In this document: positions 3,873 to 9,465 of the stretch, piece after piece
Numbering within the stretch: the first letter of the stretch is position 1
How the letters are laid out: every line of letters begins with the position of its first letter
NCBI GenBank assembly: GCA_004565275.1
Contig: SDOX01000121.1
Location: forward strand, 556,625 to 620,624
DNA: 64,000 nucleotides
Direction of reading: 5' to 3'
Origin: Nannochloropsis salina CCMP1776
Taxonomy: Eukaryota; Sar; Eustigmatophyceae; Eustigmatales; Monodopsidaceae
Made by a program: the position numbers and the translations under genes
The notes under the pieces: generated by a model
Seen by the model: only the letters and a program-made list of their open reading frames with translations
Databases searched by the model: none
What the model was told of the DNA's origin: nothing

Positions 3873-4577
3873 CACAACCCTGTGAAATTGTGTCTGGCAT
3901 TGAAGGAAGAAAACAGTAAATTTGAATGAAAAGCAAAGTTAGACCTAGTGTCAAGCCGCATAATGTCGATTTTCACAAGTGGCGTTCTTCGCTCCTTTCT
4001 TTCGAGATACAAAGATCTTCATTATCCATCCGTAAAGTTCACAGCCCTTGCCAACAACTTAAAGGTATTACTGCCTCGAGATTCCACGACATGACACAAA
4101 GAAACTATTCTTCTATGCTTGTAGGGCAGATATTTGACGACCCGCGGTCCGAATGGGCCTTTTCGGCGCGATCGATTTGTCAGGTCTTGGCAACGTCTGC
4201 GGCAGGAAATACAGCTCATTTATCTCGAAAGTGTAGATAGGAGGCCACGGATTCAATGCTACAGGCCAAGCACCCATTTTGGAACTTCCCTTGAGCCATT
4301 TCGACATGCCCCACGAAGATCAACATCAACTCGCTCCTGCTGCGAGAGTGTTCAGCGACAAAGGCCACTTTAGGTGAAAGCGCCCAGTTTCAAGCCATCC
4401 TTTCACAGCGTTGATAGGCATTATATTGAAATCTGTTGTTAAAAGGTCGTTGCCGGAAAGCAGAAAGGCAAAAGTAAATCTTTATAGTCGGATATTGTTA
4501 TTTCTTCTATCAGCACCCGATAAAGTATCTTTGATATATGATCCTAATCATTCTACAGGGTGCACAAGTGTGGTAAG
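3873..4577 (+). other. Intergenic spacer between EEP gene and methyltransferase fusion gene
   Basis: Moderately AT-rich sequence with only short, unconvincing frames. It ends in a pyrimidine-rich stretch with TTCTACAG at 4552-4559, directly before the methyltransferase frame. That could be a 3' splice site of a 5'UTR intron. I see no RNA gene or clear repeat. Confidence 0.4.
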
Positions 4578-7500
4578 ATGGACCAAGATGCACGGAGTAA
4601 TTCTCTTGAAGAAGATAGAAATGCACAATTAATGCTTTTAGCATGCGCTGGGGGGAAAGTGAAGGATGTGGAAGCTCTGCTTGCTGCTGGCTTTCCACCG
4701 CACTATCAGGAGGAGAAGGAAGGAACATCACTGCTGATGCACGCTGCCAAGGGCGCACATCTTGAAGTAGTGCAGGTGTTGCTTGCAGCTGGTGCACCAT
4801 GGATGGCCGTAGATCGTCATAGCAAATGCGCAGGGGAGTACGCGATCGCCTGTGACATTGGGGATGCCAATCGCAAGCAAAGCGTTATCGACTCCATCCT
4901 CAATCACGCCGTCATGGCTGAGATGTTGCTGGGCACCGTGGAAGATCAGACTGCAAAGGCAAACGTTCTCGAACAGCAGAGAGAATCTCATGATTATTTG
5001 GGAGGTACCGTGCGCTATGAGAGAGGTCGCCTAGTCGACCAGGTCGACGAAGGTGTTATGATGGAATGGGAGGCGCCGCTAATGGAGGCGCACGCCAGTT
5101 TTCTTTGCGGGGATGATGGTAATCGCGATATTTTGAACGTGGGATTTGGACTTGGCATCATTGATCGGGCAATTCAGCGGCGAAAATGTCGGTCTCACAC
5201 AATCATAGAGGCTCACCCTATGGTCTTGGAGAAGATGAAGACAGATGGTTGGTACCGGAAAGCAGGAGTAACGATTGAAAGTGGACGATGGCAAAATGTG
5301 CTGCCGCGGCTCGTAGCTCAAGGAAAAAAGTTTGACGGTATATTTTTCGATACGTACGCCGAACATTACCGAGATATGCAGGGTTTCCATGCTTGGCTTC
5401 CAAAAGTTATGCGGCCTGGTGGCATCTACTCCTTTTTCAACGGTTAGCTGCTCGCATTCAAATTTTGTGCTTATTCATTTCGAATCAAGTGACCGCAAAA
5501 CCTGCGCTTCTCCTTATAAATTTTGGCTGCGTGATTTAAAACTTCCTGAATTCACTTTTTCTTTTGGCTCTGTGCACCCTTTTCACAGGCCTTTGCCCGG
5601 ACAACCTTTTTTTTCATGCGGTTGCCTGTCAACTTGTCAAATTAGAGCTGGAAGCTTTGAAATTTTCTGTCGACTTCGTAAATGTCGAAATCGAAGGGGG
5701 GGCATCAGACGACAATTCATGGAAAGGGCTACGCCGACGGTATTGGCATGGCCGCGATGAGTACTTTCTGCCAGGTAAATGCTTGTTTCACTCTTATTTA
5801 TTACATTCAGCCTTTTCCAGTTTTTGGGGGCCTCACCAAAATCGTTTTTCCTTTTTTTAATTCCCGGCATGCACAAGTGGCAGTTTTTGAAGTCGAAGAT
5901 GAAAGAGCAGAAGGATCTCGTGATACGCTCGTGCATCCTGTTGACAGTATTCATGGGATTGATGGACTCGACAGTGGGAAAGCAGATGATACATTGATTG
6001 GTGAAGTCACTAGGGAGGACGGGACGAAAGAAGAGGTTTTACTCCATGCTTCTTTAGATCCGGAGGCAGGTGGAATTACATGGCGACCCTACAAAGACAT
6101 GGAAGGGCGCAATGATTCATTGTGTTTATTGAATCTTCGATGTTGGTTTCCTCCAATGCTGCACGATTTTCATCGATACAATATCTTCAAACGTGCGATT
6201 TGGAAATCCATTGAAATAATCAAAGAGCGGGTTGATGAAGACAATGTGGAAATGAAGGAAAAGGGTGAAAAAGACATCAGAGTCCTAGATATCGGGACCG
6301 GTACTGGCTTATTGAGTCTGGAGGCTGTACGAGCTGGAGCGACTCAAGTGACAGCGTGTGATGGCTTCACAGCTCTAGCAAAAGTAGCTGAAGAAGTAGT
6401 TCGTTCTGCTGGCTTGGAGAAGAACATTTGTGTCGTCCATAAAATGAGCTCAGCGCTGGACGAAGAACAAATTGGAAGCATTGATCTTATTGTTGCTGAG
6501 ATCCTGGATTCCACACTTTTAGGAGAGGGCTACTTAAGCACTCTTCGCGATCTTTATACCCGTGGCTTGGTCGACGCAACCACACATGTTGTTCCACGTC
6601 GCGCTCGGGTGTGGGCGCAGTTGGTAGAATGTCCCGAGCTTCAGAGTCATTTTAAAATCCCATCAGCTGATGTGACATGCATGGGGGACGGGAGACCCAA
6701 ACCACTCCATCTTTCTTTACCTTATAAAGATGACGAGGCCAATAACTGGGCTGAAGACAAGACGCTTTCATCGACAAAATTGTCGATACTTTCTCGAAAA
6801 AAGAGGGAGATTCTCGGAGAGAAAAGTGGAGGGCCAATAACCAGCAAGGCATTGTCAGCCCCTTTCATATTATTGGAAATTGATTTCGCCGCTGCGGCAG
6901 CGGAATCAAAAAGCTCAGTTGACTCGTCAAATGGGCCGATCATTGTGGGTCCAAACCTATCAGTCCCGATTTTGAGCGCAGGCAGTGTCCAAGGCGCATT
7001 AATGTGGTGGGAACTTATTTGTTCCGATGGTATTGAGACATACTCGAGCGCGCCTCGCGATATAGATATCGATCCTTTATGGCAAGATCACTGGAAGCCG
7101 TGCATCTGGCCTGTAACCCTGCCGTTTGATATTAATCCTTTGCAAGAAGTAAGCGTGCAGGGTGCTCATCATGATCGGAGCATCTGGATAGAGATAGGAT
7201 CCACTCCACATGAATCTCTCAAAAGATTGCGTGAAGGCCCTCATCCATGTCTTTGCGGACTCCATACCTTTTTGCCTACTGAACGGGTAATAGAATTAAA
7301 TGATGCTCGCCGAGGGGAAGCATATAGTGAGTGTTTGCGGACCATAATTGATGCGAAAGATCTCGAGATCAAAACAATCCTGGACATTTGTGATGGAGGA
7401 ATGACACTCTTCAACATGATTCAAGGATGGAGAACTGCCAGCAAGTCAGCTCGATTGCACCATTTGAATTTGGTTAGCCTTGAAGAAGATGTTTGGCATG

Positions 7501-8357
7501 GTGCTGTGCTGGAAAAAAGCAGTTTGTTGCTCAAATCAGAATATCGGAATGCTTTACATGCCATTCATGAGATGCCGCAAATAAATATATGGCATGGTGC
7601 AGGGAGGGGCGAGAATTGGGACTCGGCCTGCTGGGGAGATGTTCAAGTCCTTTGTGGCGATGGATATTATTCGAATATTGGAGTCAATCGTCCCATATGG
7701 AGTTGGCTAAATTTTTGGATCCTGCGAACGGCTTTAGCACCGATTCTTGCCCGTAATGTTGTGATTTTGCCGTTCCAAGTGCGACTCATGGCTTCGGTTA
7801 TTGAATGCCCTTCACTCTTCCGGGTGTATGGAGGAGGAAATCCCATCGACGAGGAAAAGTTGGGTGGTTGGGATCATACTGCATTTCGTCGTGCAATGAG
7901 TGAAGCAGCTTCCCGCGCAGTTTTCAACGAAGATAAAGATCTAGCGGTGTCTCTGGCAGATTATCCACACCGATTTCTGACACCACCAGCACTTCTTATG
8001 CGCATGGATCTGCATCACGCAATTGATTGGACAGCCTCTCAAGCACACGACGGAGCTTACCGCAGGAATGTGATACATGTCCCATTTTGTAGGGCCGGTA
8101 ATGCACATGCTCTAGCCCTATGGATCGATGTCGACCTCACCTACGGAGCTGCTGTAGGAAGTGAGCCCTCGTTATCGTTATCTGGATGCTTACACCGTTA
8201 TAGTAGACAATCGTTGAGGTGGATGAGTGGAGAACGTGTTGTTGAGGAGCGTACAGGGGAAAGGAATAAGTGTGTGAAAATTAAGGCAACGTTGGATGTT
8301 GTTAGTACACCAGGAATATGGACGGATTGTCAAATCACTGAAGTTGATGGAGACTAG
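4578..8357 (+). CDS. Natural fusion: ankyrin/RMT2-type arginine methyltransferase + PRMT7-type arginine methyltransferase
   Basis: Three exons: 4578-5442, 5589-5774 and 5878-8357. The junctions keep phase (1, 1) and give 1,176 residues. Residues ~15-100 hold ankyrin-like repeats. Residues ~140-350 match the RMT2 (arginine delta-N-methyltransferase) fold: NVGFGLGIID is the AdoMet loop, followed by HTIIEAHP, FDGIFFDTYAEHY and GIYSFFNG, closing with DEYFLP, which is where RMT2 normally ends. Intron 2 removal continues straight into a ~60-residue acidic linker without methionine and then a PRMT7-like enzyme: PPMLHD, VLDIGTGTGLLSLEA (AdoMet loop) and the double-Glu loop VAEILDSTLLGEG. A long second half matches PRMT7's tandem organisation. 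Both catalytic cores look intact. If intron 2 is retained, RMT2 would stop alone near 5860. An acceptor at 5883 is an in-phase alternative to 5877. Confidence 0.85.
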
Positions 8358-9142: not shown

Positions 9143-9216
9143 GGGGAATTGGCTCAGTTATGGTAGAGCGCGTCCTTCGCAAGGACGAGGCCCGGGGTTC
9201 GATTCCCCGATTCTCC
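9143..9216 (+). tRNA. tRNA-Ala (anticodon CGC)
   Basis: A full cloverleaf folds by eye. The acceptor stem is GGGGAAT/ATTCTCC with the G3-U70 pair that identifies alanine tRNAs. The D stem is GCTC/GAGC. The anticodon stem CGTCC/GGACG closes loop TTCGCAA, so the anticodon is CGC, reading GCG. The T stem CGGGG/CCCCG closes loop TTCGATT, which gives a consensus B box. There is no intron and CCA is not encoded. Confidence 0.93.
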
Positions 9217-9393
9217 ACACCTTTTGTGCTTACATACGAAAATCTTTCAAAAGAAAGACTACCAATTTTTTTTCTTTGATGCCCTCCTCAACAATTACGG
9301 GCACATTTGGCGAATTCCCAGCAAAAAGACATTACATGACAGGCATGTCGTCGTTACGCAATGTGGAAAAAATATGGTAGCGTGGAACGCCGT

Positions 9394-9465
9394 GGAGAAT
9401 GTCGGTATCGATCCGACTGCCTTCCGCACGCTAAGCGGATGCTCTACCATCTGAGCTAATTCCCC
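9394..9465 (-). tRNA. tRNA-Ala (anticodon AGC)
   Basis: Cloverleaf on the minus strand. The acceptor stem is GGGGAAT/ATTCTCC with G3-U70, identical to the neighbouring tRNA. The D stem is GCTC/GAGC. The anticodon stem TCCGC/GCGGA closes loop TTAGCGT, so the anticodon is AGC, reading GCU/GCC. The T stem GTCGG/CCGAC closes loop ATCGATA. Position 54 is A rather than T, as is known for cytosolic eukaryotic tRNA-Ala. It converges with tRNA-Ala(CGC), 177 nt apart. Confidence 0.93.

Follow-up and report, generated by a model that had tools for sequence, protein, structure and literature searches.

The window analysed here, a 64,000-nucleotide stretch of the Nannochloropsis salina CCMP1776 genome, contains on its plus strand a predicted three-exon gene that would join ankyrin repeats, an RMT2/GAMT-type methyltransferase and a PRMT7-type methyltransferase. 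Exon 1 (4578–5442) opens with the ATG at 4578, just downstream of an in-frame stop at 4545–4547 in the list of open reading frames, and covers the ankyrin repeats together with the greater part of the RMT2/GAMT-type domain. It is followed by intron 1 (5443–5588, 146 nt), which has a weak donor (ACG/GTTAGC) and the acceptor CACAG, and by exon 2 (5589–5774), which encodes the final part of the RMT2-type domain and whose last residue is the P of FLP. Intron 2 (5775–5883, 109 nt; donor CAG/GTAAAT, acceptor CAG at 5883) separates exon 2 from exon 3 (5884–8357), which supplies the V of FLPV, then a linker and the PRMT7-type tandem modules, with its frame open up to the stop at 8357.

Conceptual splicing yields one continuous frame of 1174 amino acids with the acceptor at 5883, or 1176 with that at 5877, and the linker between the two parts would be about 50 residues long. 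An in-phase splice of an RMT2-like onto a PRMT7-like half had been put forward in an initial annotation of this DNA, and it is borne out in the sequence by the single 1174-residue frame over exons 1–3. The acceptor proposed at that time (AAG, ending at 5877) is in phase, as is the CAG six bases further on, and the motifs named for both halves are present where they had been placed.

Domain content of the predicted protein

By sequence, both methyltransferase domains are full length and carry their key motifs. The ankyrin segment (4638–4850, residues 21–91) matches ankyrin structures in a PDB search and Pfam Ank_2 and Ank_5 at scores slightly below the cut-offs; with a GAMT-type methyltransferase behind it, the layout of RMT2 is present. 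The methyltransferase domain contains the motif VMMEWE (5055–5072), the AdoMet motif ILNVGFGLG (5130–5156) and the motif FFDTYAEHY (5343–5369), of which FDTY aligns with YDTY of guanidinoacetate N-methyltransferase (GAMT). GAMT structures are its closest solved relatives (best E 2e-11), and because their alignments stop at SFFN, with the end of exon 1, other relatives were required to judge exon 2. No RMT2 entry appeared among the PDB or Pfam matches of the domain, and NCBIfam, PHROGs and plasmids gave no match to it; the phage search returned one matching record, 634 kb long and unannotated.

GAMT, whose substrate is a small molecule, lacks ankyrin repeats, and Rmt2 is a separate protein. The ankyrin layout is what suggests orthology to RMT2 rather than GAMT, a weaker case than was first stated. 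Yeast Rmt2 (type IV, ankyrin repeats plus a Rossmann methyltransferase) shares the order of ankyrin repeats ahead of a GAMT-type domain, a likeness judged by layout and not from the yeast sequence, and differs in that the algal protein would continue for ~820 further residues of PRMT7 type. Methylation of the delta nitrogen, which the initial annotation attributed to RMT2, is known for yeast Rmt2, whose target is Arg67 of Rpl12 (passages of PMC3365026); for the algal domain it would be an extension by analogy.

When searched against the PDB, the 3' half returned mouse PRMT7 (4c4a, E 4.7e-30), C. elegans PRMT7 (3wst, 2.1e-22) and PRMT9 (1.8e-10), followed by type I PRMTs, so that PRMT7 is its closest solved PRMT. 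Both modules align to mouse PRMT7, in two aligned stretches. Module N has the AdoMet motif VLDIGTGTGLLSL (6282–6320) and the double-Glu loop AEILDSTLLGEG (6495–6530), both of which had been described as intact; the loop aligns to mouse PRMT7, with a Thr where the mouse enzyme carries a second acidic residue. Also aligned are VLDIGTGTGLLS, the DHW of WQDHWKPC (7080–7103), which holds the His-Trp of the THW region and aligns over WQDHW, and a CxC..H stretch, CLCGLH (7248–7265), a candidate zinc finger between the modules that pairs with mouse CDCQAH. The AdoMet motif of module C, TILDICDGG (7374–7400), is degenerate. According to passages of PMC8399567, PRMT7 consists of two modules with a zinc finger where they meet and a module C that cannot bind cofactor. 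The likeness to the mouse and C. elegans enzymes thus covers the tandem modules, the module N motifs, the loop, the His-Trp, the CxC..H stretch and the degenerate module C, and the differences are the RMT2-type domain and linker placed in front and the Thr in the loop.

Upstream of the core lies LLHASLDPEAGGITW (6039–6083), by its resemblance a probable N-terminal PRMT7 segment; in isolation it retrieved no PRMT7 from the PDB and one unrelated match (E 0.028). AlphaFold2 models made without an alignment were unusable (mean pLDDT of 39.6 for exon 1 and 31.6 for exon 3).

The exon 2/3 junction compared with viral relatives

With the RMT2-type domain as query, a profile scan of IMG/VR yielded 515 confirmed relatives; the best 80 were kept, and six came from a second scan. 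Identity to the algal domain was 31–46% in the best 80 of 515 and 38–44% in the six. These sequences form a large GAMT/RMT2-like family on environmental viral contigs (L038–L043 and L150–L229). None of four members tested matched a PHROG family, and with Pfam at E 0.01 two of the four had no match and the other two matched below cut-offs only. The viral proteins share a C-terminal P-[I/V] motif with the algal domain and differ in the absence of an ankyrin or PRMT match on all 86 loci (E 1e-3; 80 being the best of 515); PRMT7 queries found no relative on viral contigs.

To the junction alignment, the best 80 of the 515 loci and four of the six from the second scan contributed 58 distinct viral proteins. 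By a count from the match table, the alignment extends at least as far as the V that follows FLP (query residue 223) in 35 of the best 80 of 515 matches. The aligned query already contained the spliced V, and the residue counts that follow concern the viral relatives themselves. At the P of FLP, the 58 proteins have P in 45, a gap in 10, H in two and Q in one. Of the 45 with P, 28 continue with I, eight with V and nine with another residue, and none with G; I and V together account for 36 of them, and after clustering at 80% for 25 of 31. Nearly all (43 of 45) terminate no more than 22 residues past this position. Reading through intron 2 would instead place G after FLP and add a 28-residue tail.

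The RMT2-type domain would accordingly close with P-[I/V] plus a short tail; the P is the end of exon 2, and the V is given by exon 3. The exon 2/3 junction thus falls within the final conserved part of the domain, which exon 3 completes, and exon 3 is therefore tied to the RMT2 half. We regard this as the best single argument that the sequence offers for the join.

Splice sites, composition and codon usage around intron 2

GT-AG pairs were enumerated with donors in 5740–5859, acceptors no further than 5959 and a spacing of 40 nt or more; 26 such options leave one open frame. Eight use donor 5775, the sole NAG/GTRA donor within 5589–5900, and four of these (acceptors 5820, 5877, 5883 and 5892) leave V after FLP, so the predicted fusion does not depend on which of the acceptors is chosen. 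We prefer 5883 because it is a CAG, as are five of the six best-supported acceptors of the genome, and because the resulting 109 nt fall within the 94–300 nt spanned by the same six introns. These reference introns came from 17 exon pairs of CCT and proteasome genes; four pairs had no candidate, seven were ambiguous and were dropped, and six had a best candidate ahead by 4 bits or more; one of the six (L142, with an AAG acceptor) crosses a gap in the profile and is possibly in error.

The T content is 40% in intron 2 and 39% in intron 1, and 40% was reached in none of 3417 windows of 109 nt taken from the joined exons. The octamer CAGGTAAA occurs three times in the analysed 64,000 nucleotides against 1.07 expected, which is no clear excess. 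Donor-acceptor pairs of equal strength, 60–200 nt apart, number 47 over the same stretch (both strands); given so many comparable pairs, phase and position at the end of the domain are what count for intron 2.

Codon models gave a divided picture of the linker. Trained on the certain exons of this gene, a model favoured the linker frame (+16.8 and +11.4 bits) as well as exon 2 (+11.4 bits). A second model, based on ten different genes from this genome, scored frame 0 of the linker at −1.4 and +1.2 bits, which is neutral and lends no support, and frame 1 at +17.8 in the first half, where frame 1 contains one stop. The fused gene has a GC3 of 0.41–0.49 versus 0.50–0.84 for the ten model genes, and this lower value may be the cause of the neutral score.

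Copies in the genome and other relatives

Across the 26.5-Mb genome (103 contigs), the RMT2 type had one match (two candidates scored). Of the five PRMT matches, one is the fused gene, one was PRMT9-like and three resembled type I PRMTs by eye. As far as the sequence searches reach, the fused copy is the sole PRMT7-type and the sole RMT2-type gene found in this genome. Duplication in the assembly was considered, and one full-length copy was found. The PRMT9-like gene (L007:1861-4590) is uninterrupted over 909 codons and has a TPR-like front part, and its product matched an 830-residue 'MGC151858 protein' (9.1e-30), PRMT9 (1.1e-25) and PRMT7 (2e-19) in the PDB. An LHC protein encoded in this genome is close to red-lineage types, which together with the 26.5-Mb size suggests a eustigmatophyte such as Nannochloropsis.

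Scanning genome contigs with the PRMT7 alignment gave at least 592 pattern matches. Among the matches listed were 76 bacterial loci, 57 of which were also matched by a longer PRMT7 query and none of which carried an RMT2 match. Bacterial genomes and MAGs (L044–L057: Actinomadura, Streptomyces, cyanobacteria and alphaproteobacteria) encode PRMT7/9-like methyltransferases, several of them after TPR-like repeats. PRMT9 and these bacterial proteins have the same kind of PRMT core as the algal protein and differ in their front part, which is TPR-like by eye and not RMT2-type. Apparent tandem PRMT modules were seen by eye in a Kiritimatiellae MAG and a Desulfobacteraceae MAG.

A probable fused polypeptide and its possible function

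We conclude, with a probability of roughly 0.78, that one gene would produce one 1174-residue polypeptide in which ankyrin repeats come first, then an RMT2/GAMT-type methyltransferase and, behind a linker, a complete PRMT7-type tandem-module methyltransferase. This reading is well supported by the sequence because the splice is in phase, the junction completes the RMT2-type domain and no separate copy of either type was found in the genome. Each of the two enzyme classes is familiar by itself; a single polypeptide uniting them did not turn up in the open-access papers searched. The earlier claim that no described enzyme carries both holds for those papers and is limited to them: no paper on an RMT2-PRMT7 fusion was found by title or abstract in the open-access literature or in passages of PMC3145265, PMC3365026 and PMC3153492. 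Passages of PMC3145265 record PRMT7 genes, layout not given, for the genomes of three marine stramenopiles, and passages of PMC3365026 place RMT2 genes in fungi and plants, groups outside which the RMT2-type enzyme predicted here would lie.

We infer that the product is probably a bifunctional arginine methyltransferase. The mRNA would be spliced across the predicted introns and both sites would be active, the ankyrin repeats docking a substrate (in yeast Rmt2, the ribosomal protein Rpl12) within reach of both. The RMT2-type site would then methylate one nitrogen, in analogy to yeast Rmt2 the delta nitrogen. The PRMT7 site would add a single methyl group to an omega nitrogen in that arginine, in a neighbouring one or in a partner. 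An on balance unlikely extension is a natural bifunctional enzyme whose two products, delta-N- and omega-N-monomethylarginine, arise on one protein or within one complex, probably a ribosomal or RNA-binding one, as a 'Rosetta stone' fusion that would put RMT2 and PRMT7 in one pathway. If both halves work, a common substrate or pathway is predicted for delta-N and omega-N arginine methylation, and this could be tested in organisms that keep RMT2 and PRMT7 genes apart.

The fusion may also be real with one half that is no working arginine methyltransferase, the RMT2-type domain either having another substrate or serving as a mere targeting part for PRMT7. We consider this quite possible, if somewhat less probable than its opposite; it overlaps the one-gene reading, which concerns the join of the gene. 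In its favour, the solved structure nearest to the RMT2-type domain is that of GAMT, a small-molecule enzyme, and the ankyrin layout is the sole pointer to RMT2; against it speak the catalytic-type motifs retained in both halves, for which decay would be expected in the absence of function.

Separate transcripts or translation starts

The one-polypeptide reading has to be weighed against two genes or alternative transcripts, in which the RMT2 part would end by intron retention at the stop at 5858–5860 and PRMT7 would be expressed from an internal promoter, starting at the ATG at 6099 or, through the intron, at 5748 or 5757. The initial annotation held that PRMT7 has no start of its own. There is indeed no Met from junction 2 to residue 423, but Met423 itself is encoded by an in-frame ATG (6099–6101), the first in exon 3 and the sole possible exon 3 start ahead of the PRMT7 core, and to that extent the claim was overstated. 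This ATG lies 15 residues ahead of the W in a conserved W..ML.D element, common to the genome's PRMT9-like protein and, by eye, to bacterial relatives; because a start at 6099 keeps the element, a separate shorter PRMT7 is possible on the sequence. The PRMT7 frame is, moreover, open upstream over 5682–5883 on the plus strand, across intron 2 and part of exon 2, out of the RMT2 frame and with ATGs at 5682, 5748 and 5757. This openness is probably due to chance and would permit other transcript forms.

The neutral score of the ten-gene codon model on the linker also leaves room for two genes. Against them, retention of intron 2 puts a G where the family has I or V after the P, a residue seen in 0 of the 45 viral relatives; the gap between the genes would be just ~100 nt; six out-of-frame ATGs precede 6099 in exon 3; and intron 2 is T-rich with a canonical donor. 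On this evidence we judge separate genes or transcripts improbable. A bicistronic mRNA from which leaky scanning or reinitiation would yield two proteins, a situation known from green algae, is least credible of all. In the green-algal loci the first start is weak and ORF 2 is preceded by few AUGs (passages of PMC11892635), whereas the mRNA predicted here has 33 ATGs upstream of 5748 (start included) and a strong context at the first of them (A at −3, G at +4), and, with intron 2 removed, no stop separates the halves.

Just downstream of the predicted fused gene lies a convergent pair of tRNA-Ala genes, at 9143–9218 on the plus strand and 9392–9465 on the minus strand, with anticodons cgc and agc.
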